Shown here: positions 1,452 to 47,546 of the stretch, in pieces
Numbering within the stretch: position 1 is the first letter of the stretch
Layout: the number at the start of each line of letters is the position of its first letter
DNA from: an uncultured Lachnospiraceae bacterium
GTDB taxonomy: Bacteria > Bacillota > Clostridia > Lachnospirales > Lachnospiraceae
Assembly (NCBI GenBank): GCA_947626475.1
Contig: CANQSK010000004.1
Location: forward strand, 1-47,546
Reading direction: 5' to 3'
Length of the DNA stretch: 47,546 bases
The notes under the pieces: model-generated
Seen by the model: only the letters and a program-made list of their open reading frames with translations
Databases searched by the model: none
What the model was told of the DNA's origin: nothing
Position numbers and translations under genes: made by a program

Positions 1452-1471
1452 AACTGTCTCCTTTTCATGAA

Positions 1472-1737: not shown

Positions 1738-1743
1738 TAATTG

Positions 1744-1771: not shown

Positions 1772-1783
1772 GCACTTTCTTAT

Positions 1784-2949: not shown

Positions 2950-2981
2950 AATCTATGTAAAGTTTAATCAAAGACGTGTTC

Positions 2982-31784: not shown

Positions 31785-31817
31785 CAAAAAGAATGCCTCC
31801 GGAATGATTCCGGAGGT
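31785..31817 (-). terminator. terminator of the surface-polymer operon
   Basis: A perfect 9-bp inverted repeat CCTCCGGAA / TTCCGGAGG with a 3-nt loop (31796-31816) is followed on the minus strand by CATTCTTTTTG. It lies 20 nt after the last gene of the operon. Confidence 0.92.
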
Positions 31818-31836: not shown

Positions 31837-33204
31837 TTACTCGCCGATCGTTCCTATTATGGCCTCAACTCCATAATACCGGGCGACTGACTCGTTGAAA
31901 CTGTACAGACTGTCTCGCCCGGGTTCTACGTCATACAGACCATAGAGGGCATAGCGATTCGCTTTCAGCGGATATTTGAGTTTGTACACTGGTACGGAAA
32001 TGACAGTCTCTCCGTTTTGTTTCGCAGTCATGATTCTTTCTTCCCGCTGGACAAATTGCTGATGAATATCGTAGGTAGCCAGTATCGTATCTGCCGCCAT
32101 CGTTCCGAGTATAATGAGCGCTGCCGCGCAAAACACAATCCTGGCCTCGCGGGAGACCTTTTCCGGCGCAAATGCGTCCTGCATGACTATGCCTGCCGCC
32201 GCTGTCATAAGGGAAACCGTTATAAACCATGTTCTCTCAGGACTGGCGGGCGCGGCAATCATACAATATGCCGAGACCAGCGCCGCTGCAGCGAATACTA
32301 ATCCTTCGCGGATCGCACCGGGGCTGCTTTTGCGGCACTTTATAATCCCAAATACGAACACCGCTGTCAAAACTCCGGCGAACATAATCCAGTAGTAGGT
32401 TATCACAGCAAATTTGAACGGCAGTAAAAGCGACACAAACTGCGTTTCACGATCAGCGCGTTGAAAATTCCCGGGAGCGGCAACCAGCAGGATATATCCG
32501 AACACACTTCCTGCCAAACCGGACCATGCCCATTTTGGCACTTTCGCCCCTTTTAGTTTCCAAAGGCAGATGTAGGCCAGTATGACAACCGGAACAGTGA
32601 TCGAGGAATTTTCCAGCTGCCAGCCGGATATCACGCCAAGCAGGGCTACCAACACGCATTTCAATGCTCCGTCACTTGCGGAAGAAGAGACGTAACTGCG
32701 CCGGTATATCAGCATCATTCCAAGGACAGGCAGCATTGGCAGAAGATAGTTTACCACTCCGGACGTCCAGAATATATCCTGTCCCAGCTCCGGTACAAAT
32801 ATCCACAATGACAAGTTTATCCCTACAAACAGGCATATGCTGTTTTTCCTTTTGCCACGTATGATAAGATACAGCAGCCACACTGTCAGCATATATGCCG
32901 ATGATTTCACCAACGCAATCGAAGTCTTATTAAGCAGGCTAAAGAAAGCAACGTAAGAAAGAGCAGTAAGCGCTCTGCCGGTATACATCCTGTACGCATA
33001 TGCAATATAGCGGCACGTACCAGAAACAATATCATCCCCGAAAGCTAACCAATAACCGTAATCATAATCATCCCCAATGGGAGGAGTAAGAAGGTTCACA
33101 GTCAGCAGCGTCCCGAACATCAAAGCGGTGACGGCTATTGTCAACGCGATGCGCATCCTACCGTTTTTGAGGAGATTTATGGTCGATTTTGATAATTTTC
33201 TCAT
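31837..33204 (-). CDS. DUF6056-type polytopic membrane protein
   Basis: This 455-residue protein has about eleven membrane spans. The first outside loop carries PPIGDDYDYGYWLAFGDD, and SYVAFFSLLNKTSI follows. An acidic motif after the first span is typical of GT-C-fold glycosyltransferases and of the DUF6056 group. These enzymes use polyprenyl-phosphate sugars at the outer face of the membrane. The C-terminal ~60 residues are soluble. It follows the giant surface protein gene by 24 nt and is last in the operon. A role in adding sugars to the polymer or the surface protein is plausible but unproven. Confidence 0.7.
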   Translation of the reverse strand: MRKLSKSTINLLKNGRMRIALTIAVTALMFGTLLTVNLLTPPIGDDYDYGYWLAFGDDIVSGTCRYIAYAYRMYTGRALTALSYVAFFSLLNKTSIALVKSSAYMLTVWLLYLIIRGKRKNSICLFVGINLSLWIFVPELGQDIFWTSGVVNYLLPMLPVLGMMLIYRRSYVSSSASDGALKCVLVALLGVISGWQLENSSITVPVVILAYICLWKLKGAKVPKWAWSGLAGSVFGYILLVAAPGNFQRADRETQFVSLLLPFKFAVITYYWIMFAGVLTAVFVFGIIKCRKSSPGAIREGLVFAAAALVSAYCMIAAPASPERTWFITVSLMTAAAGIVMQDAFAPEKVSREARIVFCAAALIILGTMAADTILATYDIHQQFVQREERIMTAKQNGETVISVPVYKLKYPLKANRYALYGLYDVEPGRDSLYSFNESVARYYGVEAIIGTIGE

Positions 33205-33228: not shown

Positions 33229-36200
33229 TCAGGATTTGGATGCTTTTTCCCTGCGCCGTTTCACCAGGAACAGGATAAAGATGACAATGTTGGCAATTAC
33301 GCCCGCAGCCAGAATGATCCAGAGCACAAGGTTTATCCCTCCGGACGTTTGCTGGTTGGTATAGGCGGTCTTTCTGTTTGTGTAGGTGACAACCTCGGGT
33401 GTCAGATCATCCGTATCAATCTTTCCTTTGACGGTTACGTTCTGGTTCTTATCGCTTGTTCCGTCCGGAACTGCCCTTATCAGGTAACCGGAAACAGGCT
33501 TCTGAGTTACCGTATAGGAAACGTGTCCGGACAGACCGCCTACGGTTATCTGCTGTCCGCATTTAAGCGTAAAACGCCATACTCCTGTATGGGACGCTTT
33601 GATGTCATCCTCCGTCTCCTGTTTTTCGCCCCGGGAAAGCAGGGTTCCGCTTCTGATTGTCACCGTCTTCCCGTCTTTAACGCCGGTGATGGAGTAAGGC
33701 AGATCAGAATTTATATTCAGTCCGGCTATGCCTTCCAGAGTAAGAGTAAACTCAAACTCCTGCTCCACATTCTCCCGGGTCAGGCTGACATTTTCACCGG
33801 CAGGCTCCAGCCAGTTGGAGATTACCAGAGACGCGGGCGCATATTCATTTATGTAACGGATAAATTCTTCTCCGCTGCCGGCAGTGCCGTAGCAGTTATA
33901 GATGCGTCTGCCGTTCCCGGCTTTTAAGAAACGCGCCTTAGGCAGCTGTGCCATCTGCTCCATGGAGCTGTTGTCCATCTGCAGGTTGTCACTGACGACC
34001 CAGTGCCGGATTGCCTCCTGTCCTTCATATTCATCGGGACCATTCGGGAACTCTCCGCAGTCCCGGTGAAGGCTCTCTTCGCCGTCATAAATGCGGCGCC
34101 ACGCGCTGATAACCGCGCTGCCGCTGGGCGTACTCATGTCGTTGATGGCATAATGTATCTCCTCCGCGCTTCCGTCCTGGTTAATCTCCTTCAGCAGAAA
34201 TCCTTCGCTGCTCAGTCCTTCCTCAGTTACCCGATATCCGGAACCGGAACGGATGCTCAGAAGCAGGCCTTCACCGCCGCTCAGGGTAAACTCCGCCGTA
34301 TGACTGGCTACCTCATCCCATGTGACCCAGGTGATTTCTTCCCCGGACTCCTCCAGACGGGCATATTCCGCCGTCTGCATGACCGCTCGCTGCTGTCCGG
34401 GAATCGCGGCGCAGGTAGTATCCGTCAGCCAGAAAGGCGTGGTATCCATGAGGGCATCCGAGATCATGGCAGACCCCTGGGCTCCGGCCTCACCGCTCTG
34501 CTTTCCAAAGCTCAGCGTCTCCGTCAGATAAGTGACATCCACGAGATAATCCGATACAACGTTCATCGAAGTATCCGTATCGTCCGGCTCCAGGCGGGCA
34601 ATGACAAACGGCTCAGCGTCCTCCTTATAGGTTCCGTCTTCAAAGCCGATGTGGATATAATCTTCTGTGCTGTCCGGTTCAAAGGCCGCCTTTCCTGCCC
34701 TGCCGGCGGGAACCAGCCACACATCCCTGGCGTAAAATTCCATCGTACCGGCAGGATTATCCTGTCCGGCCGGGTGATAGGTGGTCCAGAAGTCCTCCTG
34801 CGCTACGCTGTTTTCCGGCAGGCTGCCTGCGGCATACACGCGGCGGCCCATATCGGACAAAGGCCTTCCCGGATCATAGTCCTTTGATTCCTCGCTTATG
34901 AAAAGATACTTCCGACCCTCGGAAATACCGTCCGGTGCGGCATACACATAATACCGCTGATCTCCGGACGATGCCGTCAAACCGGCAGGCTGCCCGTTCT
35001 TATCTACAACAGCAGGCTCTCCGTTTTCGTCCAACAGGAAACCGGAACCGTCCGTCTCAACGCTGACCGCTCCGATCTGCCGCCGCCATCCGCCTTTTCC
35101 TCCGTTGTCGCTGGGGTCATATCGAAGTACGACGGCCTCCTGTTCGCCGGTAAGTCCTTCCGCGTATATCTGATAACGGAACTCCGTCCCGGCCAGCTCC
35201 TGAGGAGCGGATACGCTGTTGACAATGCACAGAAGAGAATTGCTGACCGTAAGCTTGCCGTTGTTTCCCAGATAGTCAATAATGACAAACCCGTTTTCCG
35301 CATCCATCTCCGTGCCCGTTGCGGGTGTGAAAGAATCCCTTGCCGTCAGCGTAGGATTGGCACCCTTTTCTTTTCCGGTCTTGTAGAATTCTCCGGCACG
35401 CGTACTTTCAGGCCTGGCCGCGAGAACCCACTTAATACCGGAAGATGCATACTCGTCCGCGCTGATTCTGCCGTCCAGGTCAATGTCCAGGGCGTACAAA
35501 ACCTGATTCTGTATATTCAGCCAGTACAGAACCTGACGCTCCAGTTCGTCTTCGGTGATGCCGATGGCCGTCAGATATTCCCGCAGACTGGCCTCATCGT
35601 AAGTCAGTTTTTCCACAGTCGGAAAACCGTGAGTGACATCGTTTTCCGCCATGTACGCGGAGACGGTGTCGGTGCTGCCGCTTAAGTCCGCCCAGCAGAT
35701 CACTTTGCCGGCTCCCACATCCTCCAGGGCGTTGTCCACGGCAAATTCCGAGCCTGTACTGCAGGCGGCCCGCCAGCCGACGCTGCCTTCCTGATCAGTT
35801 CCCGTGCCGGGCAGATAATATTCCTCGAAGAAGAAATAGTAATCACCGGATTGGATGCCTGTCTTTTCGTTCTGCTCCGTAATCGATTCACTTGTAAGCA
35901 GATCGCGTTCAAAAAAGATTATGCCGCCCTCCGCAAAGTGATACTGGTTTCCCAGGCTGTCCGTAATCATGCCGCCTGCGGCCGCCTCACGGGCCGCTGT
36001 GTACGCGGCTTCGTCTGTATACGTACCCATGTATTCGCCGCCGGTCCAGGTGACGCCGCCTGTACTTCCGTCCTCCCAGGTGGTGGCGCTGTTGGACTGA
36101 TTCTGATTAACTGCCGTCCACCCCCTGGTATTGTCAATGCAGGAAACCCCTGTGCCGGACGTGGGCTTCGTCTCCGTCACCCGATAAGCGTGTTTATACA

Positions 36201-39200
36201 AGGGTCTGGCTTCCTGATGCAGATAATAGCTATTCTCCTCGCTTGGAGAGAAGGTCACGTTCGCGTCTGTGCCGGAATATCCTTTGCCTGCGGAACCGAT
36301 GGAGGAAGATGAAACCTGGCGCAGAAAAGAGTTCTCCATCAGAATTGGCGAAAACAGAAGTCCCGCGCTGCCCAGCAGACGGTCTCCAGAACCGCCGTAG
36401 GAAAGGAGCGTACCGGCGGATTCTTCATTTTCTGCCGCTTCATTCTCAGTCTCCTCATCCTCCGATGTCCCATCTCCTGCCGTCTCAGCCTCAGTCGCTT
36501 CGTTCTCTGCTGCCTTGTCCCCTGCCACTCCCTCTGCCGACGTCTCATTCTCCGCCAGTACACTGTCTGAAACCGCTTCGGAACCAGCCTCCGCGCTTAC
36601 CGTCTGCCGGACGCCCTCATAGCCTTTCCTGGCGTCATTGCTGTAGGAACCGGAGTGGAAAAATACGCTTCCGACTCCGTCGCCCTGGTGGTCCTTACGG
36701 TAATTCTGAGGAAGGGAATCAATATCAACTCCCGTCTGACGGCTGTACAGGTCCTGATTGAGCAGGTCCTCGTCAAGCCCTACCGCATAGAACAGCCGGA
36801 AAGGCGTCGATTCGGATTTCTTGTTCCGATTGCCCTCAAAAGAGGTCTTCCCGTCAGCGCTGAGTGTTATCAAAGCGGTCTGAGTCGGCAGAGCAGCCGC
36901 CGGAATATTCACATAAAGCGCGCTCTGACCGGAAGCCGAGCTGGACGAGACCTCTGTCCAGATACGGATATCATTGAGCCGGTAAACGCCGTGCTCCCCA
37001 CTGTACAGGTCGTTGTCCGCAGGCTTTTCCTCCAGGTCCTCCCACATATTCTCCAGATTGGTGGGCACAGCCGTGCCATAAGCGGGATTCATGCGCAGGA
37101 TGTCCCGCTCCTCAGCATTGTCAGAGAAACGGTACAGCGTATAGGTCTTGCGGCTCTGTTCTTCCAGCAGGCCGGTCCCCAGGGTAGGCAGGTAATCATA
37201 CAAAGTATCCGAACGGATACGGTAAACCCAGCCGTTGTTCCACGGATCCTCCGGAGCGTTTTCGGGGGAAAGGTATTCTGCCGTCGCCCCGTTGTCTCCC
37301 CTGTACCAGCCTTCCGGAAACTCCGCGGCTGTTTCCCTGGTAAAGCCGGACTTAGCGCCGGAAGTAAACTTTCTCATATACGCGCTGTAGAAATCAGGAT
37401 CATACACTGCCGCCCGCTCAAGTCCGTGCATCTGCCCAAACAGAAGGGCCGCCATATCATAGCTTTCCTCCGATGTTTTTCCGGAGGCCTTTGTCCGGAC
37501 GGAACCGTTCTTGACCTGCATGTACTGACCGATCGGATCGTGATAGGTAACGCTGTTGCCGGCGGCCGCATTGTTCCTGCCGGCGATCGGGACAAAGATC
37601 TTGCCTCTGAGCATGTCGACGATTTCGCGGAACACACTGCTCAGCTCCTCAGACTCTACATCGTAAAACCGGTCGGGATAATTAATATTGTCTATCACTT
37701 CCTGGTTGGTAACACCGATGGTCTCCACCGCGTTGCCGGTGCCGTCCCTTCTTACATACGTATAGCCTTCCGTCTGAGAACCGATCCGCAGCGTGGCGCA
37801 GCCGATTACCGTATGCTCCGGGTTAATGTCCAGCTGTTCGCTCAACGGACCCTTGCTGTTGCTGTTTCCGACCCAGTCCGCAAGCACAGAGACTGTCCCG
37901 CCAATGGTCGAAGCATTCTTCCACTCCTCCCACTTTCCGTAGGTGTAAGGCAAAAGGTCTTCCATCTGATTGTCGTCTCTGTCCTTCCAGGCAAGAGGGG
38001 CTCTGAAATCATCTCCGATGCAGGCATAGTGGGGGTCATCCCACAGAGTCGCGTGAAAATAGACCTCCGGATCCATGGTCGGATAGATCCGGTACCTGCC
38101 CCAGGCAGGCAGATGCACCGCGTCCACACTGACCGTATAGATGCTTAAGGGAATCCGGCTGTCCAATTCCGCGCGGCCCTTCTCCCAGCCCTGCTCATAG
38201 TGTTTTTCCACCACATTCTTCATGTAGGAGGCCGTCATCAGCACCTCCAGGATAGTGGATGGGGTTCCTCCCACATCCGCGTCGCTGTCATAGAAAATTC
38301 CGCCGTCGTCGTAAGCTGGAATGGAGGTCAGCATACTCCGGGCGACTCCATCGTTGTACAGAGTTGTGATATTGTCCTGCGGCAGATAGATATCATACCA
38401 TTCATTTCCCGCATTCACCGGCAGCTCGTGCTGCGCATCCTCATTGGGATTATTGAACGCGAAATTGGCGCCGCCGTCTGTCAGCACCATAAGTACTGGA
38501 ACCCGGGCGACCCGGTTCGTCTCGCCGTTCTCAAAGGTCTCGGTATAGACCATCTCCTCCGTGTCCGCCAGCTGCTTCATGCCCAGATATATGCCTCCCT
38601 GGGTATTGGTCATATAGCCTACGTACTGGTCTGCCTGAAGCTGGCGGCCGTCCCCGTCCACATCAGGATCCGGGTGGAGCACATCATTTTTCACATTGTT
38701 GCTGATGGTCCGGTTCCAGACCGCCTCATAAGTCTCCGGAGCGACCTCGCTCTGGTCGTACAGAGCATTGGCAACCACTGTATAGCAGGCGTCACGGTTG
38801 ATGGTCCAGATTCCCTCATCCGGCTGCAGAGTCGTCTGCCCCATCTCCTGCGGAGTTGAATAATCGTCCCGGTCGTAAAGTGTCTCCATACCCCCGATTG
38901 TCAGATAGGGCTGACCATCAACCCTCTGATAGTGGGCGAGAGGCATCAGCACGGCGGCGTTCGCGCCGTAGACGCAGACCGCCACCCGGTTCTGGCTGTT
39001 TTCCTCCATGACAGAGTCGATGGTCTCATTGACCGCGTCAAGAGTTTTCTGAACCCGGGACTGTTTGATCCGCTCCTTCATGGTCTCCTGATAGCCGTAC
39101 TCTCTGCCCGCATTGATGGGATACTGAGTGCTTTGCGCCATGGAACCGGACATATCCAGCACCAGGACCAGGTCGAACGGGGAGGTCGTATGATCATTGA

Positions 39201-39615
39201 CTACCTGGGAAGAGCCCAGCGCGGAAAAGACATTGAGAAAATCTGCCTCAAAGCCCACATTCCCCTTATAGCCGTCCGTCTCATTATCCAGCTTGAGGAT
39301 GTTGTCCGGCAGACCGCCGTCCTTCTCCGCGGCATTGTAGGCAAACACCGTCTTGTCTGCCCAGACGCGCCCTGCATTGCGGCTGCCTTCTTCGTCATTG
39401 AGCAGCGCGTCGGTGTAGGTATCCATCGTGCTGGGATCGGCAGTGCGGATAAATGCCTCTCCGAGTTTGTTCACTCCTGTCTCAGAAACGGCTGAAGCGG
39501 AAGCCTGAGCCGTCTTTGAAACAGCAGACGAAGAGGCCTGAACTGTCGCCGGAGACAGGGTCAGACACAGGCTGAACGCCAATGATTTGCACACCAGAGT
39601 AATCGCTTTGTTCAT
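33229..39615 (-). CDS. giant vWA-domain surface protein (2128 residues)
   Basis: The protein starts at ATG 39615 with GGAGG 7 nt upstream and has a signal peptide (NKAITLVCKSLAFSLCLTLS, likely cut after VQA), then a Ser/Ala linker. A von Willebrand A domain begins near residue 150 with the metal site LVLDMSGSM (Asp154, Ser156, Ser158), has TNTQGGIYLGM and VLTDGGANF, and carries long inserts. An acidic Glu/Asn/Ala/Thr segment lies near 1010-1065. A canonical EF-hand loop, DIDLDGRISADE, lies near 1375. Beta-rich pilin-like modules follow (EFEFTLTLEG... and VSYTVTQKPVSGY), then one membrane span and KRRREKASKS. No LPxTG is present; the pre-span sequence is TNQQTSGG. It lies inside a polysaccharide operon. 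It is likely displayed on the cell surface; its ligand is unknown. Confidence 0.85.
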   Translation of the reverse strand: MNKAITLVCKSLAFSLCLTLSPATVQASSSAVSKTAQASASAVSETGVNKLGEAFIRTADPSTMDTYTDALLNDEEGSRNAGRVWADKTVFAYNAAEKDGGLPDNILKLDNETDGYKGNVGFEADFLNVFSALGSSQVVNDHTTSPFDLVLVLDMSGSMAQSTQYPINAGREYGYQETMKERIKQSRVQKTLDAVNETIDSVMEENSQNRVAVCVYGANAAVLMPLAHYQRVDGQPYLTIGGMETLYDRDDYSTPQEMGQTTLQPDEGIWTINRDACYTVVANALYDQSEVAPETYEAVWNRTISNNVKNDVLHPDPDVDGDGRQLQADQYVGYMTNTQGGIYLGMKQLADTEEMVYTETFENGETNRVARVPVLMVLTDGGANFAFNNPNEDAQHELPVNAGNEWYDIYLPQDNITTLYNDGVARSMLTSIPAYDDGGIFYDSDADVGGTPSTILEVLMTASYMKNVVEKHYEQGWEKGRAELDSRIPLSIYTVSVDAVHLPAWGRYRIYPTMDPEVYFHATLWDDPHYACIGDDFRAPLAWKDRDDNQMEDLLPYTYGKWEEWKNASTIGGTVSVLADWVGNSNSKGPLSEQLDINPEHTVIGCATLRIGSQTEGYTYVRRDGTGNAVETIGVTNQEVIDNINYPDRFYDVESEELSSVFREIVDMLRGKIFVPIAGRNNAAAGNSVTYHDPIGQYMQVKNGSVRTKASGKTSEESYDMAALLFGQMHGLERAAVYDPDFYSAYMRKFTSGAKSGFTRETAAEFPEGWYRGDNGATAEYLSPENAPEDPWNNGWVYRIRSDTLYDYLPTLGTGLLEEQSRKTYTLYRFSDNAEERDILRMNPAYGTAVPTNLENMWEDLEEKPADNDLYSGEHGVYRLNDIRIWTEVSSSSASGQSALYVNIPAAALPTQTALITLSADGKTSFEGNRNKKSESTPFRLFYAVGLDEDLLNQDLYSRQTGVDIDSLPQNYRKDHQGDGVGSVFFHSGSYSNDARKGYEGVRQTVSAEAGSEAVSDSVLAENETSAEGVAGDKAAENEATEAETAGDGTSEDEETENEAAENEESAGTLLSYGGSGDRLLGSAGLLFSPILMENSFLRQVSSSSIGSAGKGYSGTDANVTFSPSEENSYYLHQEARPLYKHAYRVTETKPTSGTGVSCIDNTRGWTAVNQNQSNSATTWEDGSTGGVTWTGGEYMGTYTDEAAYTAAREAAAGGMITDSLGNQYHFAEGGIIFFERDLLTSESITEQNEKTGIQSGDYYFFFEEYYLPGTGTDQEGSVGWRAACSTGSEFAVDNALEDVGAGKVICWADLSGSTDTVSAYMAENDVTHGFPTVEKLTYDEASLREYLTAIGITEDELERQVLYWLNIQNQVLYALDIDLDGRISADEYASSGIKWVLAARPESTRAGEFYKTGKEKGANPTLTARDSFTPATGTEMDAENGFVIIDYLGNNGKLTVSNSLLCIVNSVSAPQELAGTEFRYQIYAEGLTGEQEAVVLRYDPSDNGGKGGWRRQIGAVSVETDGSGFLLDENGEPAVVDKNGQPAGLTASSGDQRYYVYAAPDGISEGRKYLFISEESKDYDPGRPLSDMGRRVYAAGSLPENSVAQEDFWTTYHPAGQDNPAGTMEFYARDVWLVPAGRAGKAAFEPDSTEDYIHIGFEDGTYKEDAEPFVIARLEPDDTDTSMNVVSDYLVDVTYLTETLSFGKQSGEAGAQGSAMISDALMDTTPFWLTDTTCAAIPGQQRAVMQTAEYARLEESGEEITWVTWDEVASHTAEFTLSGGEGLLLSIRSGSGYRVTEEGLSSEGFLLKEINQDGSAEEIHYAINDMSTPSGSAVISAWRRIYDGEESLHRDCGEFPNGPDEYEGQEAIRHWVVSDNLQMDNSSMEQMAQLPKARFLKAGNGRRIYNCYGTAGSGEEFIRYINEYAPASLVISNWLEPAGENVSLTRENVEQEFEFTLTLEGIAGLNINSDLPYSITGVKDGKTVTIRSGTLLSRGEKQETEDDIKASHTGVWRFTLKCGQQITVGGLSGHVSYTVTQKPVSGYLIRAVPDGTSDKNQNVTVKGKIDTDDLTPEVVTYTNRKTAYTNQQTSGGINLVLWIILAAGVIANIVIFILFLVKRRREKASKS

Positions 39616-39616
39616 G

Positions 39617-41047
39617 TTATAACCTCCCATATTCCTCCGCCAGCTGATTCCTCTTTATCTTTCCTGTCGAGGTTCTGGGGAGAGGATTATCACGGTTCCA
39701 GACTCTCACCAGCTTCCGGTCCAGGGGCCTGCCTCTGTTGTATCGCTCCAGCGCCTCCTGGAAGCGGCCTTCGTCAAAACCGTCTCCGGGCGTAACGGCC
39801 AGGACCGGATATCCGCCATACCCGAACACAGCGGCCTCCGCAATTCCCGGAAGAGACGAAAGCTCCGTGTCTGTATCCGCCGCGTTCAGTTTTTCTCCGT
39901 TTCTCAGGACGATCAACTCTCCCAGGCGGCCAGTAATCCGAAGAAAGCCCGTCTCGTCAAGCGTTCCCATATCTCCTGTCATCACTGTATCGCCGCAAAG
40001 TACCCGGCGAGTTTCTTCTTCTTTCCCGTAATACTCCTTAAAGTGATATGGCAGAGTAAGAAGAACCTCACCCTCATTGCTGATGCTCACCTGAATGCCA
40101 TCAACAGGCCGGTAGCGGAGAAGTTCGCCGCCGGCTTCGCTGATGGCGGCCAGGCCAATCACCTCGGACATGCCGTACATAGCATACAGGGTAATTCCCT
40201 TTTCTCTGAGTATTTCCTGATATTCCTTCGGGCAGGCGCTTCCTCCTGTGATCACGACACGGGTCTGAGGCGGAAATCCGGAGGTTTCCAGGACGAACTT
40301 GATCATGCTGGGAACGAGAGTCACATTGTCGGCTTCATACGCCCACAGATCGGTTTTCAGTTCTCTTCCCCCGCTGCTGATGCAGAAGATGCCGCCCCGG
40401 TTGAGAACTTCGATGACCATCAGGAACCCGAAGATGTGGAAAAAGGGAATTGGAGAAAAATAAGTTTCCTTCGGATTTCCCGGAAGTGCGCTGCGAAACA
40501 TGCGGAGATGCCCGGCAAGCGTGCCTGCCGGTATCACCACGCCCTTGGATCCGGCGGAGGTTCCGGACGTAAAAATAATGATATCCTGCTCGGGACCTCC
40601 GGGCGGCAGGCATCCTTCCTCCTCCCCGCACCTTCCGGCAATCTCTCCGGCCTTCCCAAACTCTTCAAAAACATAAACCGGCATGTCCGGGAAGAGCGTT
40701 TCGGCCTCGCCTGCAAGCTCTCCGCCTGCAGCGACAGCCTGCACACCAGCGTAAGCGGCCAGACGCCTGAAATCCTCGTCGCCGATGGAGCTGTCAAAAA
40801 GGATCACGTGTTTTCCGGCAAGCAGACAGGCATAAGCCGCGACAAGCCAGGAATAGGAGCTGTTTCCCCATATCCCGATGCGGCTTTCAGGCAAAGCGGC
40901 GGCCCGCCGCGCTCCTGCTTTCAGGTCCCTCCACAGCTCTTTGTAGCTTACGCTGAAAACAGTCCCGGCTGTTCGGTACCGCAGCGCGGGCAGCTGTTCA
41001 TATTCTCTGACCAGTTCCCGGATCAGATCCCACAAAGAATGATCCAT
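39617..41047 (-). CDS. acyl-adenylating enzyme (ANL superfamily, acyl-ACP/CoA synthetase-like)
   Basis: This 476-residue enzyme has the adenylate-forming signature IIFTSGTSAGSKG (157-169), FFHIFGFLM as in fatty-acyl ligases, MYGMSEVIG, TGDMGTLDETG, and the C-terminal catalytic Lys463 in PRTSTGKIKR. It should activate a carboxylate as acyl-AMP. It is shorter than most acyl-CoA ligases (500-550). The FHIFG motif points to an acyl or aryl acid more than an amino acid. A carrier protein gene lies 2 kb upstream in the same operon and is a likely acceptor. The gene's 3' end holds the ribosome site of the giant surface gene, which starts 1 nt after its stop. The substrate is unknown. Confidence 0.87.
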   Translation of the reverse strand: MDHSLWDLIRELVREYEQLPALRYRTAGTVFSVSYKELWRDLKAGARRAAALPESRIGIWGNSSYSWLVAAYACLLAGKHVILFDSSIGDEDFRRLAAYAGVQAVAAGGELAGEAETLFPDMPVYVFEEFGKAGEIAGRCGEEEGCLPPGGPEQDIIIFTSGTSAGSKGVVIPAGTLAGHLRMFRSALPGNPKETYFSPIPFFHIFGFLMVIEVLNRGGIFCISSGGRELKTDLWAYEADNVTLVPSMIKFVLETSGFPPQTRVVITGGSACPKEYQEILREKGITLYAMYGMSEVIGLAAISEAGGELLRYRPVDGIQVSISNEGEVLLTLPYHFKEYYGKEEETRRVLCGDTVMTGDMGTLDETGFLRITGRLGELIVLRNGEKLNAADTDTELSSLPGIAEAAVFGYGGYPVLAVTPGDGFDEGRFQEALERYNRGRPLDRKLVRVWNRDNPLPRTSTGKIKRNQLAEEYGRL

Positions 41048-41070
41048 CCCTTTATCCTCCTCTTTGACAC

Positions 41071-42192
41071 TTATTTTCTCACATTCCCGGACCTTCTGTC
41101 GAGAAGTGCCTGATAATAACGCTCCATCTCTTCAGCCTGAAAGGCCATATCATAAGAGGAAAAATCCCCTCTGTACTCCCTGACTCCCGGGTTGAGCCGC
41201 AGGGCTTCCATGGCCCACCTTTCGGCAGGGTCGGAAAGTTCCAGAAACACCACACCGTCCCGCATCCTTATCTCCGGCGAGATTCTCGTGGAGATGACAA
41301 CCTTCAGCCCGGCAGCCTGCGCTTCCACCGGCACCAGCGGCAGACCTTCATATCTGGATGGAAACACCAGAACGTCCATGGCCTGATAAAGCCTTCCCAC
41401 GTCATCCCGATTGCCCAGCATGATCACCCGGTCCCTTATGCCCAGCTTCTCCGCCTTTTTTTCAAGCTGGTCCCTGGTCTCCCCGTCTCCCACCAGCAGA
41501 AGGATCGAGTCAGAATTACACTCATGAACGATCTTAAAAATATCCAGCACAAATTCCTGATTTTTCTGAAAACAGAACCTTCCCACATGACCGACCACAA
41601 ATTTTCCGTCCAGCTCCAGCTGACGCCTCACCTGAGCGCGGACATCCGGATCATAGACGCACGCTTTCACATCGATCACGTTATGAAGGACTGTCACCTG
41701 TCCTCTCTCTGTTGCCTTTTTTCCGAACAGCCACGTTCCTGCCGAGACAGAACAGGCGGCGTAATCTGTGGCATAAGTCCTGGAAAAGGTGCGGAGAATG
41801 TTTTTGGCGATATTCTTCTTCCCTTCGCCTCTGGCCGCGGATGAATGGCTTTGGGAAACACGTATGGGAACACCCGCTTTCTTCGCCGCGTAAAGCGGAA
41901 AAACACTCAGCGTATTTACGTGAGAGTGAACGATCTGGTATCTGTTTTCCCTGAAAATTCGGGTGAGTGTACTTATGTACTTTCCAAGCCTGCGGTAGGA
42001 AGGAATCCTGTACACGCGCCCGCCAAGCTTCTCAATCTCTTCGTAAGGAACCTTTGTCGAGTCCTCATTGACAAAAAAATCAAACTGCACCTTACTCCGG
42101 TCAATAAACCGATAATGATTCATGACGAAGGCTTCTACGCCGTAACCCGTCATAACGCCAAGAACCTGCGCGACCCGCAGCTGTTTGTCCAT
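41071..42192 (-). CDS. glycosyltransferase family 4 (EpsF-like)
   Basis: This 373-residue GT-B enzyme has an N-terminal acceptor domain (VAQVLGVMTGYGVEAFVMNHY, IVHSHVNTLSVFPLY) and a C-terminal nucleotide-sugar domain with VGHVGRFCFQKNQEFVLDIF and the EX7E motif in PSRYEGLPLVPVEAQ. Family 4 enzymes are retaining and cytosolic, adding sugars to a lipid-linked glycan. It lies 25 nt after the alpha/beta hydrolase gene and 23 nt before the adenylating enzyme gene. It is closely related to the second glycosyltransferase at the right edge, with the same FGKK and PSRYEG blocks. Confidence 0.93.
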   Translation of the reverse strand: MDKQLRVAQVLGVMTGYGVEAFVMNHYRFIDRSKVQFDFFVNEDSTKVPYEEIEKLGGRVYRIPSYRRLGKYISTLTRIFRENRYQIVHSHVNTLSVFPLYAAKKAGVPIRVSQSHSSAARGEGKKNIAKNILRTFSRTYATDYAACSVSAGTWLFGKKATERGQVTVLHNVIDVKACVYDPDVRAQVRRQLELDGKFVVGHVGRFCFQKNQEFVLDIFKIVHECNSDSILLLVGDGETRDQLEKKAEKLGIRDRVIMLGNRDDVGRLYQAMDVLVFPSRYEGLPLVPVEAQAAGLKVVISTRISPEIRMRDGVVFLELSDPAERWAMEALRLNPGVREYRGDFSSYDMAFQAEEMERYYQALLDRRSGNVRK

Positions 42193-42217
42193 GTCTGTTA
42201 CCTTACCCTTCTGCCGC

Positions 42218-43114
42218 TCACTGCGCCGGAAGATATTTGTGTAAAAATTCCATCGCTTCCGCCAGTTCGCCTTCTTCCCCTGCCAGCGCGTGGACGTGTC
42301 CCGGTTTGATCGCGACGGTCAGATTATTGGAATATTCCGCAGCCTCCTTCTGGAACGAATAGATCCCGTCTATGGACATCAGCGGATCCACATCGCTGTT
42401 CACCAGCAAAACGGGAACGCTCAGCAACCTGCCCATGTTCTGATCCGGTGAATGTTGGAGCAGTTCAGTGCGAAGCTTGCTGGCATCCGCCGGCTTCGTC
42501 ATATTCGTCGTCGCGCCGTTGCATCGGATTCCATACATGTTCTGCACGTTTACCAGGGTACTCCAGACAGGTGTTCCGTAGAAACTGATCACGCACTGGG
42601 GCCTTACGTCGCTGTATGCGGTAAAGTACAATGCCGTGAGAGCTCCTAAGGAGTTTCCGGCCACACAGAAATGCTCCGCGTCCACGTAATCCACCGCTTT
42701 ATACCTGGCCACCAGTGTTTCGACATTTCCGGAGGATCTCACAATAATATCGTAGGGGTTGAGCGCATCCGGCGAAATATCCTCTCCTTCTCCAGCCAGA
42801 TCAGGCGCCACCACCGTATATCCCGCGTCCGCAAACTCTTTCGCATAGCCAACCATGGATATCTTATCATTGCTGGCGGAATGAAGAAGGATCAGGAGAG
42901 GGCTTATCTGCGGAGCGCCCTTTTTCCTCAGCTCATAATAGTGAAGGCCTGTTTCATCCACCTCCCTCATATCATAGCCATCCTTCAGATATTCAATGAT
43001 GGCACTCTCTGTCAAAGCACCTGACGCAGATGAGGCGTAGGCCACATGAAAGCTGCCCAGCAGAGCCGCCAGGGTACAGAATACAACCAAAATACTTTTT
43101 CTTATTTTTCGCAT
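42218..43114 (-). CDS. secreted alpha/beta hydrolase
   Basis: This 298-residue protein has a signal peptide (RKSILVVFCTLAALLGSFHVAYA) and a full alpha/beta hydrolase fold. The nucleophile elbow is AGNSLGAL (Ser155), the acid is Asp243 (NSDVDPLM) and the base is His275 (PGHVHAL). Its ATG overlaps the carrier protein gene by 13 nt, with AGGAGG inside that gene, so both are made in step. It should act outside the cell as an esterase, deacylase or acyltransferase. Its tight coupling to a carrier protein and a membrane acyltransferase suggests that it works on an acylated polymer. No lipobox cysteine is seen. Confidence 0.9.
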   Translation of the reverse strand: MRKIRKSILVVFCTLAALLGSFHVAYASSASGALTESAIIEYLKDGYDMREVDETGLHYYELRKKGAPQISPLLILLHSASNDKISMVGYAKEFADAGYTVVAPDLAGEGEDISPDALNPYDIIVRSSGNVETLVARYKAVDYVDAEHFCVAGNSLGALTALYFTAYSDVRPQCVISFYGTPVWSTLVNVQNMYGIRCNGATTNMTKPADASKLRTELLQHSPDQNMGRLLSVPVLLVNSDVDPLMSIDGIYSFQKEAAEYSNNLTVAIKPGHVHALAGEEGELAEAMEFLHKYLPAQ

Positions 43115-43341
43115 AATTTTCCTCCTGTTATATTCGCCAGGTCTCCCAATGTCACAATATCCCTCAGTTGACGGTCCGTGAAATGCACGGAAAACCGGCT
43201 CTCGATACGAAAGATAAAATCAAAGATCTCCAGGGAAGATAACTCCATATCCGTCAGGATCGAGGTGTCTTCTCCCCACTCAATCTCTTCACTGCAGTAT
43301 TCCTTCGCTATCTCAATGATCTCTTTCAGCAGCGATTCCAT
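43102..43341 (-). CDS. acyl carrier protein
   Basis: This 79-residue acidic four-helix protein has the phosphopantetheine site at Ser36 in MELSSLEIFDF, where the usual DSL is SSL. RIESRFSVHFTDRQL gives helix III. It is distinct from the fatty-acid ACP in its site and lies far from fab genes. It starts 2 nt after the acyltransferase-3 gene and overlaps the secreted hydrolase gene, so the three are translated as a block. It likely receives an acyl group from the adenylating enzyme encoded in the same operon. Confidence 0.9.
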   Translation of the reverse strand: MESLLKEIIEIAKEYCSEEIEWGEDTSILTDMELSSLEIFDFIFRIESRFSVHFTDRQLRDIVTLGDLANITGGKLCEK

Positions 43342-43343
43342 CC

Positions 43344-44360
43344 CTATCCCCCCTTTCCTTTTCCGGCAACCGGCTCCTTGGCGGACACTCTCTGCTTACA
43401 CCAGACCATAACGCGGCACAGTGCCGCGATCAGCGCCAACCTGAGCAGAAAATACAGCATAAGGTTCGGAAAACTCGTCCTTGGGATAAACCGTACCAGA
43501 AGCTTCCATGGAAAAACTCCGTCCTCAACGTTGTGTATGCAGAGAACCCACAGAGAGTACCTTCCGGCCAGTCGGACCGGCTCCAGCACCCTCCAGTCCA
43601 GATCATTTAAATAGAGAAACAGCCGGATCAGCAGGAACGCACCGCACAGCGCAGCAGGTATGATAATCAGACTGTTACGAATCTTGTACAGCGCCAGATC
43701 CATGCTGCCTAGACAGCCTCCCGCCAGCCAGACCGCGATCAGAAGGACATAGACGCGGGGCGCGATTCTCTTTTCAAGAAGCTTTTTCCTCTTGATCAGG
43801 TAGCCAGCGTAAACATAGAAAAAGGCAATAAGTCCCTGGCTGATCTGAAACGGCAGCTGGAACTGCAGCGACAGACCGCCTGCCAGACCGCATACACACG
43901 CTGCGATGATCTGCCCTCTCTCACGCAAGATATTTATCACCAGATAATAGACGCACCAGGCGATGAACAGGGCAAACACAAACCACACGCTGACAAGCCT
44001 GCCCCTTTCGCCGGATATGACCAGCAGGGTAGAGATCAGAAACACATCCGTCCAGTCCTTCATATTGTGAATCAGCGCCCTGTGCACCCCTCCCACACTT
44101 ATGATGATAAGGGCCACGATCACGTAGGGCACAAGAAGGAACTTGGCGCTGTTTGCAATCCCGTCCTTCACCTTTCTCTTCTTAAGCCAGTATCCGCTGA
44201 CCACAAAAAGTGCCGGTATCAGTGTGGCCTCCAGGATTCTCACAGGCAGCGTATCCTTTAAGTTCAAAAAAATCAGGGTATGGCGCAGGATCGCGATGAT
44301 GACAATGCTCCCTTTCAACAGATCGAACATGGTCAGACCCATCCTTGGCTGCAGCTTCAT
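43344..44360 (-). CDS. acyltransferase family 3 membrane protein (OafA/WecH-like)
   Basis: This 338-residue protein has about ten membrane spans and the family-3 opening MFDLLKGSIVIIAILRHTLIF, with the conserved His27 near the end of the first span. These proteins move acyl groups, commonly acetyl from acetyl-CoA, onto extracytoplasmic sugars. Unusually, its gene is fused in translation context with a carrier protein gene (2-nt gap). It may therefore take acyl groups from ACP; this is inference. It starts 13 nt after the flippase gene, with GAAGGAG upstream. Confidence 0.85.
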   Translation of the reverse strand: MKLQPRMGLTMFDLLKGSIVIIAILRHTLIFLNLKDTLPVRILEATLIPALFVVSGYWLKKRKVKDGIANSAKFLLVPYVIVALIIISVGGVHRALIHNMKDWTDVFLISTLLVISGERGRLVSVWFVFALFIAWCVYYLVINILRERGQIIAACVCGLAGGLSLQFQLPFQISQGLIAFFYVYAGYLIKRKKLLEKRIAPRVYVLLIAVWLAGGCLGSMDLALYKIRNSLIIIPAALCGAFLLIRLFLYLNDLDWRVLEPVRLAGRYSLWVLCIHNVEDGVFPWKLLVRFIPRTSFPNLMLYFLLRLALIAALCRVMVWCKQRVSAKEPVAGKGKGG

Positions 44361-44373: not shown

Positions 44374-45795
44374 CTACTTTTTTATGATCTCCCTAAGCTC
44401 CGCGACAGAACGCAGGAGTTTTTTTCTGCCGATGCCCAAAAACAGCAGGTACGCCGCAAAATAAACCGCGAAAGCCGCACACCCCGGAAGCGACCAGCTG
44501 CTGAAAATGAAGGCGGCTGTCAGCCCTCCTTCCAGCAGATGATCCCGCAGGACGGGAAGCGGCATCTGCCGGGCCAGCAAAGACTCCGTAAGAACGGCTT
44601 TTACAGCGTACAGCAGGATGATGGACAGCACCGCCAGATCCAGGTTTCCCCAAATATGTACTGTGCAGAACGTCAGCGCAGCGCTGATCAGCACGGTGCA
44701 GATGTTCACCTTCATGATATCCTTCTCCCTGCGGAGTGTCTTTAGGTAAGTCAGGGTCAGCACGCTGGTCCTCGTCTCGTAGATGCACAGGGGGAATAAG
44801 ATCGCAAGGTATCTCAGACTCTCTCTGTACTGGGGAAGCCAGAGCTCAAGGAGCCTCCTGGCCGGAACATAGCACAGAAGGAATCCGTACATCGCCGCCG
44901 TCAGGCAGCTGCGAACAGGAAGGTAAAGTTCGGACAGCACTTCCCTCCTGGTTCTGCGCAGCATGGGATAAAGCACGACTCCCACGGCGGAAATGCAGGT
45001 GATCAGCATGTTCGCCATACTTAAGGAGAGCGAGATCCTGCCAAAGGTATCGATACCCCAGTGCTCTTCCATGGCAAAGCGAACAATTCCCACGATCAGC
45101 TGGGCGGCCAGGCCGGCCAGACAAAGCTTACTGCCTGTTCGTATGAGTTCACGGGCAAGGGACAGGGACCGTCGCAGAGGGGCGGGCCTTTGAAACGTCA
45201 CTTCCCGGCACAGCCAGACAGCGTACAGGAGCATAACCGCGGCGCTTAATATCTCCATACAGGCAAAATACCGGAAATCCCGTCTGCCCAGAGCAAGACA
45301 CAGAATCACGAGGAAAAAATACAGCATCCGCTCTCCGGTATAGTTTCTGGCGTACTCCCTGATCCGGTGGGTCGCCTGAAGGATCATCTGCAGCTGGTAC
45401 TTCAGGATCTGAATCCCGGTGAATGCCATGGCCAGTTTCAAAGCCAACAGCTTTTTCGGATCGGAGATCAGCCGGTCTCCCGCCAAAAGCACTATGGCGG
45501 CAAACAGCGTCTCGTATACGGCAAGACTGAAAAACTGCCCGCTCAGTTCCCGGCCGTCAAGCCTGCGGTAATCCTCCCCACCGTATTTGAGGAGTATTCC
45601 ATCGCCCCATCCCAAGGAGGAGAAATTCAGGTAGGAACTGTAAAACGCATACAGCTGCCAGTAGCCGTAATCCTCCATGCTCAGAAGCTTCGGCAGGAAC
45701 ATTGTCAAAATGAAGGTCGTTATAATCCTGCTCAGATTCGCTCCAACTACATAAAAAACATTTTTTATAAACAATCGAATCTGCACATTGTTCAT
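44374..45795 (-). CDS. Wzx-type oligosaccharide flippase (MOP superfamily)
   Basis: This 473-residue protein has twelve to fourteen predicted spans and opens IKNVFYVVGANLSRIITTFILTMFLPKLL, typical of polysaccharide flippases of the MOP exporter group. It would flip lipid-linked repeat units across the membrane. It lies between the EpsG-type polymerase gene (34 nt upstream) and the acyltransferase gene (13 nt downstream). Together with those genes it forms a Wzx/Wzy-type polymer route. Confidence 0.9.
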   Translation of the reverse strand: MNNVQIRLFIKNVFYVVGANLSRIITTFILTMFLPKLLSMEDYGYWQLYAFYSSYLNFSSLGWGDGILLKYGGEDYRRLDGRELSGQFFSLAVYETLFAAIVLLAGDRLISDPKKLLALKLAMAFTGIQILKYQLQMILQATHRIREYARNYTGERMLYFFLVILCLALGRRDFRYFACMEILSAAVMLLYAVWLCREVTFQRPAPLRRSLSLARELIRTGSKLCLAGLAAQLIVGIVRFAMEEHWGIDTFGRISLSLSMANMLITCISAVGVVLYPMLRRTRREVLSELYLPVRSCLTAAMYGFLLCYVPARRLLELWLPQYRESLRYLAILFPLCIYETRTSVLTLTYLKTLRREKDIMKVNICTVLISAALTFCTVHIWGNLDLAVLSIILLYAVKAVLTESLLARQMPLPVLRDHLLEGGLTAAFIFSSWSLPGCAAFAVYFAAYLLFLGIGRKKLLRSVAELREIIKK

Positions 45796-45829: not shown

Positions 45830-46888
45830 TTATCTGAAAAATACCAGTTTATACGGGATAGCATCGTAAGACCCGCTGACGTACACTTCAAATAAAAATC
45901 TCACCAAAAGGACACTGATTATGGCTGCCGCCGCCAGCACGCGCATACGGTCGTTGTCCTCCTTTCTCAAGATTATGGAAAAACTCAGCACATCCACCAC
46001 TTCAAAAGCAGTAGCGATTCTGTTCGCCCCAGGCAGCTCAGCCGAAAGCAGCAGCATAACGAAGGCTGCTGTCATCATCCAGGTCATCCATTCATAATCC
46101 CGGTCGCGATCCGGAAAACGCGCCAGATAAAATATGTGTATCAGCACTAGCACCGACATTATAAGAAAGCCGCTATGAATGAACTCGTGTTGGTCATAAT
46201 AACCTCCCAGATAGTGCGCAAACCTTGTTACCCGATACACTCCCCGCAGCAGAATCTTCAGTATCGGATAGCCGACCGTCAAAGCCGCCAGGACACCCAG
46301 GCATCTTCGCGGAGTCGCCCGGAAGCCGTAAAGGAAATAAACCGGCAGGTATATGAAGGAGGACGTATGGAATGTCATACCGATCAGGTTCAGCAAAAAG
46401 TATCTCTTCCAGTCTCTTCGGGTCAGGTATTTCACCGAGTAGAGGAAGATGGACATGGCCAGGGTCTGCCGGATTGCGGTAAGGGACAGAAAATACGTGC
46501 TTCCGATAAAAAAAACCAGGATGCTGAACGGAATCAGGCGGGATTGCTGGCAAATGGCCGTAAAAAAGAAAATCATTGTAATCAATCCTGTAAAGGCCAG
46601 CGGCCACCACACATCGTCTGTAAACAGCCGAAAAAACCGGTAAATCAGAGTAAAGCCCTTATCAGGAGACGGCTGCATACCTAATTTCATCAGATCAAAG
46701 CCGCCCTTGTAGATAACCACCCAGTCCGTGCCTACCTCGTACCGGAAAACCGTAACAAAGATAAAGGGCAGCGCTGCGAGGACGCAGAATGTGATGTAAC
46801 TGCTCCGGAGCTGTTCATAGGGTTTCGCCCGCCAGGCGTAGCCCGCAAAAAACAGCGATATGGCCAGCATCGTGATATAAATTCCCAT
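45830..46888 (-). CDS. EpsG family membrane protein (Wzy-like polymerase)
   Basis: This 352-residue protein has about ten spans. FRYEVGTDWVVIYKGGFD and SLTAIRQTLAMSIFLYSVKYL are hallmarks of the EpsG family (GTDW-Y and the RQ-A motifs), which are thought to polymerise exopolysaccharide repeats. ATG 46888 has GGGGGTG upstream, and the glycosyltransferase stop (TGA) lies in that ribosome site. The 20-codon longer frame overlaps the preceding gene and was rejected. Confidence 0.92.
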   Translation of the reverse strand: MGIYITMLAISLFFAGYAWRAKPYEQLRSSYITFCVLAALPFIFVTVFRYEVGTDWVVIYKGGFDLMKLGMQPSPDKGFTLIYRFFRLFTDDVWWPLAFTGLITMIFFFTAICQQSRLIPFSILVFFIGSTYFLSLTAIRQTLAMSIFLYSVKYLTRRDWKRYFLLNLIGMTFHTSSFIYLPVYFLYGFRATPRRCLGVLAALTVGYPILKILLRGVYRVTRFAHYLGGYYDQHEFIHSGFLIMSVLVLIHIFYLARFPDRDRDYEWMTWMMTAAFVMLLLSAELPGANRIATAFEVVDVLSFSIILRKEDNDRMRVLAAAAIISVLLVRFLFEVYVSGSYDAIPYKLVFFR

Positions 46889-46892
46889 GCCG

Positions 46893-47546
46893 TCACCCCC
46901 AAGTCCCCTGCCGGTAAAAGTGATCCAGCTTTTTTGCTTCCTGTTCAATGAGAAGATTTCTCTCCGCCAGCTTCCTGTACACGTCCTTTCCGCGGCCTTG
47001 CGCGGCTGCCTCCCGAATCTGACGGCACCAGACGGAGACGCCCTCCGTCAGCGGCAGTATCCTCACTTTTTCAGACAATATCTGCCCCGGCACAACTGCC
47101 GGGGATGCCACAACGGGAAGGCCGGCGATCTGTGCTTCAATCGGTACAAGAGGCCAGCCCTCATATCGGGACGGAAATACCAGCACATCCATGGCCATGT
47201 ACCAACAGTTTACTTCCCCCGTAGGCGGCACGAACATTACTCTTTCGGAAATTCCCAACGCTTTGGCCTGCTCCTTTACCTGTTCCAGCAGTGGACCGTC
47301 TCCGATCAGCACAAGACGGCTGTTTTCCTCCTGCCTGCGGTATCCGGCGAACACCTCCAGCAAAAAACTGTGATTTTTCTGTTTATGGAAACGCCCTACG
47401 TGCCCCAGCACGGTGCAGCCCTTGAGTCCGTATTTCCTGCGCATTTTCTCCCGGATACCGGCGTCAAACCGGAACGTCTCATAATCCAGAGCGTTATTCA
47501 TGATGACGGCGCTCTTCGCTCCTTTTTTTCCAAAGAGATAGCGGGC
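46893..47546 (-). CDS. glycosyltransferase family 4, C-terminal part (cut by window edge)
   Basis: The frame is open from the stop at 46893 to the right edge, giving 217 codons without a start; the ATG at 47501 is internal. ARYLFGKKGAKSAVIMNNALD, beyond that ATG, matches the same block in the glycosyltransferase at 41071-42192 (LFGKKATERG). VGRFHKQKNHSFLLEVF, VLIGDGPLLEQVKEQAKALG and the EX7E motif PSRYEGWPLVPIEAQ show the donor domain of family 4. It should add a sugar to the same lipid-linked glycan. The N-terminal acceptor domain and the operon promoter lie outside the window. Confidence 0.93.
   Translation of the reverse strand, partial: ARYLFGKKGAKSAVIMNNALDYETFRFDAGIREKMRRKYGLKGCTVLGHVGRFHKQKNHSFLLEVFAGYRRQEENSRLVLIGDGPLLEQVKEQAKALGISERVMFVPPTGEVNCWYMAMDVLVFPSRYEGWPLVPIEAQIAGLPVVASPAVVPGQILSEKVRILPLTEGVSVWCRQIREAAAQGRGKDVYRKLAERNLLIEQEAKKLDHFYRQGTWG

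Follow-up and report, generated by a model that had tools for sequence, protein, structure and literature searches.

The window, the whole stretch of 47,546 nt that was analysed, is an entire contig ending at base 47546, and the 5′ end of the operon described here is therefore missing. Within this exopolysaccharide (EPS) operon, a set of four genes encodes an acyltransferase-3 (AT3) membrane protein, a carrier protein (ACP), a secreted alpha/beta hydrolase and an adenylate-forming acyl ligase, all on the minus strand at the positions assigned to them in the preliminary description. The features are listed below in the order of transcription.

46893..47501, minus strand: GT4-like glycosyltransferase, named by eye, 5′ part cut by the contig end (context)
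45830..46948, minus strand: EpsG-family polymerase (context; PF14897, 169 bits)
44374..45795, minus strand: flippase-like membrane protein, named by look and place (context)
43344..44360, minus strand: AT3 membrane protein, 338 aa, K16-x10-H27 (PF01757, 54.5 bits, cut-off 31; clade of ACP/ligase-linked AT3s, 100/100)
43102..43341, minus strand: ACP, 79 aa, Ser36 in DMELSSLE (PF00550, 25.0 bits, cut-off 20.8; conserved Ser)
42218..43114, minus strand: secreted alpha/beta hydrolase, with a Ser155-Asp243-His275 triad and a signal recognised by eye (PF01738/PF00561, 31.1/30.4 bits, cut-offs 21/25.8; triad invariant, n = 6)
41071..42192, minus strand: GT4 glycosyltransferase, lying between the hydrolase and ligase genes (context; PF00534, 95.2 bits)
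39617..41047, minus strand: adenylate-forming acyl ligase, Lys463 (PF00501, 109.8 bits, cut-off 29.9; best PDB matches FadD13 and MenE; not DltA)
33229..39630, minus strand: VWA/DUF7601 surface protein of 2133 aa, next gene downstream of the ligase (context; PF24547, 56.5 bits)
31837..33204, minus strand: DUF6056 membrane protein, with which the gene run ends (context; PF19528, 283 bits)
31796..31816, minus strand: terminator-like stem after the DUF6056 gene, 9 pairs with a T-rich tail (consensus match only)

The AT3 and ACP genes are separated by 2 nt and the ACP and hydrolase genes overlap by 13 nt, both as previously reported, but this block, which had been taken for the last three genes of the module, comes first in transcription order and is followed by the GT4 gene and then the ligase. 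The earlier picture of a tightly shared EPS operon thus stands for the AT3-ACP-hydrolase packing and for the EpsG polymerase, with the correction that the GT4 gene separates hydrolase and ligase. The polymerase has a TTG start and a 56-nt overlap with its upstream gene, its true start being unsure, and the flippase-like protein had no match in Pfam or NCBIfam.

Pfam searches and alignments confirmed the four gene identities and the key residues named beforehand (FTSGTSAGSKG, Lys463 and Ser36). The ligase carries the ANL adenylating-enzyme motif set (P-loop TSG...K, YGx(S/T)E, TGD and C-terminal Lys), with T160, S161, G162 and K168 in the P-loop FTSGTSAGSKG, Y291, G292 and E295 in the second motif, T357, G358 and D359 in the third, and Lys463 invariant in 9 aligned sequences; His204 was conserved in 9/9 and is also present in FadD13 and MenE, its best PDB matches, which are fatty-acid and succinylbenzoate ligases. 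The ACP attachment residue Ser36 was invariant in 8 aligned sequences, a Ser was present in all 16 sequences read, and the ACP profile matched ordinary ACPs in the PDB. The AT3 showed the AT3 match only (Pfam), with no fused SGNH domain, and its R/K-x10-H of helix 1 is present as K16-x10-H27. A structure prediction for it from a 3-row alignment gave no usable model (pLDDT 42), and its profile had no match among PDB sequences at E 0.1.

The label "Dlt-like", applied in the preliminary description, holds as an analogy and fails as membership. In Dlt (DltA-DltC-DltB-DltX-DltD), as would be the case here, a ligase loads a carrier, a membrane acyltransferase exports the acyl group and a serine hydrolase acts outside, and this common logic is what speaks for a true Dlt system performing D-alanylation. 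We consider that reading highly improbable, and Dlt membership was rejected, as the ligase scored 21.6 bits against the DltA equivalog TIGR01734 (cut-off 559.85), and neither an MBOAT (PF03062) nor an SGNH/DltD protein was found among the nine operon proteins scanned, the cut-off 5′ end of the operon lying outside view and the outside hydrolase matching DLH/Abhydrolase_1. The module differs from Dlt in having an AT3 in place of the MBOAT, a ligase that is not DltA, an alpha/beta hydrolase that is not always present in place of the SGNH protein, and a location in an EPS operon. Another ligase in the same genome reached 290 bits with the DltA model, itself below the cut-off.

When 397 genomes from the family of the window were searched with a profile of the AT3 subfamily, 21 AT3s were detected. 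An ACP or ligase lay within 1.5 kb of, or was fused to, 15 of these (10 of the 16 outside the profile-building rows), compared with none of 30 control AT3 loci, which were the best Pfam matches rather than a random draw and were read with a minimum ORF length of 55 aa instead of the 45 aa used for subfamily loci (no subfamily partner was below 55 aa); five of the 21 had no partner within 1.5 kb. A Pfam scan of 5 genomes, whose fetched set did not include the AT3 fragments G092:C271, G092:C374, G299:C19 and G299:C28, returned 28 AT3 matches, only five of which were within about 3 kb of PF00550, all in module operons. The co-occurrence of the four families in relatives, which the preliminary description had set as its test, was found at 5 loci with EPS-like genes, in five genomes (in two of these, identity was about 20-40%), and the AT3-ACP-ligase core at 13 loci. 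In one genome, AT3 and ligase were fused in a single 1191-aa ORF. In G371, all parts were present in one EPS-like operon (other genes named by eye), and G217 showed the order flippase-AT3-ACP-hydrolase-ligase with interposed glycosyltransferases at about 20-29% identity. Since the grouping recurs in relatives, it is not a matter of chance. The cassettes of G116 and G153 lay outside EPS operons (by eye), and thus the acceptor need not be EPS; G114, the only other genome sampled from the genus of the window, contained neither ligase nor AT3. No subfamily AT3 was detected outside the family f1 in samples of 391 genomes from the class (3 matches), 398 from the phylum (1 match) and 196 from the order (3 matches), which overlap and include f1 genomes, and members outside f1 can be missed because only top candidates were scored. 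One new f1 match, G1300, came from these samples.

The 17 linked AT3s, together with the split case G053, formed one clade (100/100) in a tree that included 23 control AT3s (5 of the 30 loci were without a usable AT3 ORF, and 2 ORFs longer than 430 aa were dropped) and 23 of 25 unlinked rows (L095, a fragment, and L103, in a wrong frame, were dropped). Across 14 genomes, AT3 and ligase identities were correlated (r = 0.28, P = 0.021; G092, G039 and G053 each entered with a single selected ligase copy, and the correlations exclude G300), and rpoB identities correlated with neither AT3 nor ligase (r = 0.04 and -0.11). The module ligases did not form one clade in a ligase tree that left out ORFs longer than 620 aa and loci L026, L027 and L034 (G053, G237 and G217, represented by other rows). 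A single module-ligase clade was therefore rejected, which makes one common acid unlikely.

The RXXR on the cytosolic face of AT3 helix 3, supposed to be a CoA-phosphate site, is absent from the window's AT3, where the segment reads ANSAKFLLV. It was missing in 12 of 17 linked AT3s, the window included, compared with 17 of the 46 AT3s made up of the 23 control and 23 unlinked rows (P = 0.024 by Fisher's test, kinship ignored); as an RXXR-like pair was present in only 29/46 of the other AT3s, the motif is not universal in the sample, and its loss was discarded as proof of an ACP donor, the difference being too weak. These counts bear on the reading in which the ligase acts as an acyl-CoA synthetase, the AT3 uses acyl-CoA like known AT3s and the ACP serves some other purpose. 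According to a 2022 review, the physiological donor of AT3s is more probably acyl-CoA than ACP, and acyl-CoA served as donor for the AT3s assayed in vitro that it cites, such as CmmA, TmaT and OatA (PMC9558356); in the PDB, the ligase is matched best by CoA ligases, and 5 of the 17 linked AT3s keep the RXXR-like pair. We nevertheless regard this reading as unlikely, given that the ACP gene adjoined the AT3 or ligase gene in 14 of 16 loci (contig ends truncate the remaining two) and that RXXR was missing in the window and in 11 of the 16 other linked AT3s. Among titles and abstract openings in the open-licence literature, no description of an ACP-fed AT3 was found.

Ligase-ACP pairs also occurred in 4 fetched loci without a BLAST match to the window's AT3 (L044, L045, L048 and L050), and the pair alone is therefore not specific. 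In Vibrio cholerae O1, the tetronate genes include a ligase, an ACP and an acyltransferase that is soluble, and are not known to include an AT3; the ligase-ACP pair would feed sugar acylation, which has been proposed to take place inside the cell, on a sugar precursor or lipid. The module shares the ligase-ACP pair and differs in having an AT3 in place of the soluble acyltransferase. By the same token, ligase and ACP could work on such an intracellular precursor or lipid, with AT3 and hydrolase acting separately, as pairs in loci without a detected AT3 might suggest, but the AT3-ligase fusion and the AT3-ligase-ACP cassettes outside EPS operons (L073 and L074; by eye) make this improbable. The ligase search of the family returned mostly ligases without an AT3 partner.

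Taken together, we propose an acylation module that is fed by a carrier and serves an EpsG-type exopolysaccharide, and we give the route ligase-ACP-AT3 a probability of roughly 0.7. The ligase would convert a carboxylic acid, in all likelihood other than an alpha-amino acid, to acyl-AMP and load the acyl group onto the phosphopantetheine of the dedicated ACP; on the cytosolic side, the AT3 would accept this group from acyl-ACP and transfer it to the exported glycan outside. The chain from acyl-AMP through ACP to AT3, as first suggested, is supported by the recurrence, the dedicated AT3 clade and the fusion; the acyl-ACP donor, the polymer acceptor, the nature of the acid and the role of the hydrolase are inferences.

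The hydrolase was not a fixed part of the module. None was detected by profile or BLAST in 11 of 16 linked-AT3 loci (three of these cut by contig ends); the known module hydrolases belong to different alpha/beta subfamilies (DLH/Abhydrolase_1; Hydrolase_4/AXE1; BD-FAE in G053). The Ser155/Asp243/His275 triad was invariant in 6 aligned sequences, the N-terminus resembles a Sec signal, placing the protein outside the cytoplasm (by eye), and in the window, L010, L011 and L072 the gene directly follows the ACP gene with an overlap of 1 to 13 nt (in L011 depending on a manually chosen start). Its model (pLDDT 65; Foldseek TM about 0.5, rmsd about 10 Å) ranked YjfP and feruloyl/cinnamoyl esterases highest and, being mediocre, says alpha/beta esterase fold and little more. 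The secreted or lipoprotein serine hydrolase added in the five EPS-like operons would most likely be an esterase, trimming or resetting the acyl decoration. Alternatively, with the same loading route and a difference in the hydrolase only, the acyl group might pass from AT3 to the hydrolase serine and then to the polymer, making the hydrolase the final acyltransferase in parallel with DltD, PatB and the OatA SGNH domain. The gene position, the triad and the N-terminus would suit this role, which SGNH partners play in AT3-SGNH and MBOAT-SGNH systems according to PMC12148441, which also says that, Dlt apart, MBOAT/SGNH pathways have no carrier protein; we hold it as a tentative second choice in view of the loci without a hydrolase and the mixed subfamilies. 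The module is best read as Dlt-like logic built from non-homologous parts, with the hydrolase as an optional outside esterase or transferase.

Two further groups of systems resemble this carrier-fed module in part. The AT3 and AT3-SGNH O-acyltransferases (OafA/B, OatA, ExoH/ExoZ and IcaC) share PF01757, the K/R-x10-H motif and the polysaccharide context, whereas the module adds ligase and ACP genes, lacks RXXR in most linked AT3s (12/17) and has a separate alpha/beta hydrolase where AT3-SGNH proteins have a fused SGNH domain. PatA-PatB-Ape1 peptidoglycan O-acetylation likewise combines a membrane transferase with an outside transferase and esterase, but consists of MBOAT and SGNH proteins without a carrier protein. 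We lean, by a small margin over even odds, towards a third architecture for surface-polymer acylation, a convergent rebuild of Dlt logic in which an AT3 clade is fed by a dedicated carrier instead of acyl-CoA, the acid may be changed by swapping ligase lineages, and alpha/beta esterases have been added on the outside independently; so far it is seen in a single family, probably Lachnospiraceae, and in one likely recipient beyond that family. An AT3 clade tied to a ligase and an ACP makes the AT3 donor question directly testable. If the proposal is true, these bacteria could have a route for placing acids beyond the common CoA-borne ones on their coats, which may influence how they interact with hosts and phages; given the differing ligase lineages, a change of one gene might be enough to vary coat chemistry.

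Downstream of the ligase, the VWA/DUF7601 protein scored 24.9 bits with PF13519, below the cut-off of 27, and the interior of its gene holds two minus-strand terminator-like matches of 10 and 11 pairs, the terminator scan being weak evidence (17 matches versus 14.9 in shuffles). A similar protein also follows the ligase in L011 (by eye).

The module lies in a tightly packed minus-strand run whose start is missing, because the window is the whole contig (G000:C4, 47,546 bases). In transcription order it comprises a cut GT4-like glycosyltransferase, an EpsG polymerase, a flippase-like protein, an acyltransferase-3 protein (AT3), a carrier protein (ACP), a secreted alpha/beta hydrolase, a GT4, an adenylate-forming ligase, a VWA/DUF7601 surface protein of 2133 aa and finally DUF6056. 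AT3 and ACP are 2 nt apart, ACP and hydrolase overlap by 13 nt, and gaps of 25 nt (hydrolase-GT4), 23 nt (GT4-ligase) and 1 nt (ligase-VWA, or a 14-nt overlap, by choice of start) follow. The operon anatomy of the preliminary description was right overall, except that the ligase sits one gene apart from the other three. A terminator-like stem lies 3' of the last gene (DUF6056), and the VWA gene holds two minus-strand terminator-like matches of 10 and 11 pairs, although the scan proves little, with 17 matches overall against 14.9 in shuffles.

Window 33229-39630, minus strand: surface protein of 2133 aa that has DUF7601 and, under cut-off, a VWA-like stretch, directly 3' of the ligase gene

This protein weakly matches a pilus ancillary protein, and a similar one is present at locus L011 of a relative. 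Elsewhere in the window's genome there are separate natural-product-like clusters: one 1797-aa ORF combines adenylation and carrier domains (G000:C8:28924-33652), and in another region two ligases lie with three ACPs (G000:C14:16294-27698).

The adenylating-enzyme motifs of the ligase (P-loop, YGx(S/T)E, TGD and the C-terminal Lys) were kept in 9/9 aligned sequences. Its best PDB matches were FadD13 and MenE, with His204 common to both and Gly207 to MenE. The substrate aspartate of DltA lies near His204/Gly207 (not aligned), so an alpha-amino acid is an unlikely substrate. The ACP serine was present in 16/16 sequences, preceded by Asp in one and by Ser in 11, the usual motif being DSL. The AT3 belongs to PF01757 by family score and keeps the K/R-x10-H motif. 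RXXR is absent from the window AT3 and from 12 of 17 linked AT3s (those with an ACP and/or ligase nearby or fused), compared to 17 of 46 others (P = 0.024, kinship not corrected for). In simulation, the second Arg of RXXR holds the 3'-phosphate of CoA (PMC9833829); its absence fits a carrier-bound donor, which lacks that phosphate, although as evidence this is weak.

Most likely, a putative acid would be converted to acyl-AMP and then to acyl-ACP, the putative donor from which the AT3 would acylate a putative acceptor glycan outside the cell, and the hydrolase would trim this acylation. Such a module would work like Dlt, yet it is not Dlt: tested for the DltA model, MBOAT and SGNH, it showed none. 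The ligase scored 21.6 bits on the DltA model (cut-off 559.85), and another ligase of the same genome, at 290 bits, likewise fell below. PMC12148441 divides polymer acylation mainly between two systems, MBOAT with SGNH and AT3-SGNH, and states that MBOAT/SGNH pathways other than Dlt have no carrier; section 14 of an AT3 review finds strong support for acyl-CoA, not ACP, as donor (PMC9558356). Titles and abstract openings in the open-licence literature yielded no description of an ACP-fed AT3.

Neighbouring genes in relatives were named by eye or BLAST, save where Pfam was used. A contig scan of genomes found ligases of 70-72% identity in two relatives, both MAGs with isolate names starting with Lapin, and a ligase search found matches in 24/299 family genomes, the window's own included, the others at 26-32% identity. 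AT3, ACP, hydrolase and ligase are consecutive at L010, and L011 reads GT4, EpsG, flippase, AT3, ACP, hydrolase, a second distant AT3, two GT4s, ligase and VWA protein. Genome G217, one of the 24 with a ligase match, has the window's gene order (flippase, AT3, ACP, GT2, lipoprotein hydrolase, further glycosyltransferases, ligase), its module parts being about 20-29% identical to the window's. Genome G092 has ACP-AT3-ligase (L038), a short contig with a separate ACP-ligase pair, and a fusion that is the most direct sign of joint working of AT3 and ligase.

L039 (G092:C426) 120-3695: AT3-ligase fusion, one 1191-aa ORF with AT3 N-terminal and a full ligase C-terminal

A further stretch of this ORF is weakly ligase-like (18%, E 6e-05). 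Directly 3' of the L038 cassette lies a CotH kinase-family gene (G092:C20, 3856-4977). At L046 (G039:C8, 7777-12265) one AT3 is followed by two ligase-ACP pairs, perhaps for two acids. A second, MBOAT-type acylation set (L011, 17153-20311, and L105, 1310-2839) stands beside the AT3-type one in the L011 operon: past the VWA protein come a secreted protein that by eye resembles DltD/AlgX (no Pfam match above cut-off), then FkbH (PF21211), another ACP and an MBOAT (PF03062). Cassettes in G116 and G153 lie outside EPS operons (by eye), so the cassette looks portable and the acceptor may differ. The second genome sampled from the window's genus, G114, had neither ligase nor AT3 of the module kind.

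Ser155, Asp243 and His275 of the hydrolase are common to six aligned proteins, all of which, by eye, begin with a signal, lipoprotein or membrane-anchor sequence. Fold comparison with a structural model of the window hydrolase (pLDDT 65) ranks YjfP high, along with feruloyl, cinnamoyl and chlorogenic esterases (TM about 0.5). The best alpha/beta family differs: DLH/Abhydrolase_1 in the window, Abhydrolase_1 in G371, Hydrolase_4 with AXE1 in G217 and BD-FAE in G053. Sought by BLAST or a profile of four hydrolases, which others could escape, it occurs at 5/16 linked loci (window, L010, L011, L047, L072) and also at L079; among the 11 loci where none was seen, contig ends truncate three (L038, L039, L080). 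With differing ester-cleaving families beside the module and no hydrolase seen at 11/16 loci, an optional editing esterase is a better fit than an obligatory transferase. That the hydrolase acts as an outside transferase is a live alternative, since its gene overlaps the ACP gene and SGNH partners offer a precedent.

A subfamily profile built from seven AT3s (threshold E 1e-35) found 21 AT3s in 19 of 397 family genomes, and none beyond the family in class, order and phylum samples. An ACP and/or ligase lay within 1.5 kb or was fused in 15/21 (10/16 excluding five AT3s used to build profiles), one had only a hydrolase and five had no partner. By the same test, none of 30 control AT3 loci (best Pfam matches from 60 genomes) had an ACP or ligase, and none matched the profile. 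A Pfam scan of five genomes gave 28 AT3 matches, of which five lay, by eye, no more than about 3 kb from a PF00550 match: one each in the window, the L010 genome and G092:C20, and two in the operon of L011. Longer stretches held 17 linked AT3s in 16 loci, with linked AT3s in 13 genomes of the 397-genome sample; all three of AT3, ACP and ligase were present at 13 loci, only AT3 and ligase at L080 and at the fusion L039, where contig ends are near, and only AT3 and ACP at L076. At L079 (G053) the AT3 adjoins a hydrolase, and two ligases of matching lineage lie on another contig. Ligase-ACP pairs with no AT3 by BLAST occur at L044 (amid oxidoreductases), L045, L048 and L050.

Together with the G053 AT3, the 17 linked AT3s form one clade (support 100/100), L047 being a long branch. 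Within 1.5 kb of the nearest sister AT3s (L082-L086) there is neither an ACP nor a ligase. At one of these sisters, L083 (G148:C6, 9242-18017; 692-aa ORF), a ligase about 5 kb away is followed by an MBOAT-like gene (by eye), perhaps a Dlt-type set. The module ligases fall into several lineages rather than a single clade, and the main lineages match AT3 subclades. Across 14 genomes, AT3 and ligase identities correlated (Spearman r = 0.28; Mantel P = 0.021, uncorrected, from one of three tests). Comparisons with the species marker rpoB gave 0.04 for AT3 (P = 0.39) and -0.11 for ligase (P = 0.73); AT3 and ligase seem to travel as a pair, and not with rpoB. The partial rpoB of the L011 genome shares 57-59% identity with those of other module genomes, against 70% between its module ligase and that of the window, a contrast that suggests either transfer between families or misbinning of the contig; the G+C of the L011 contig (0.62-0.63) is in line with that genome's other contigs (0.52-0.67).
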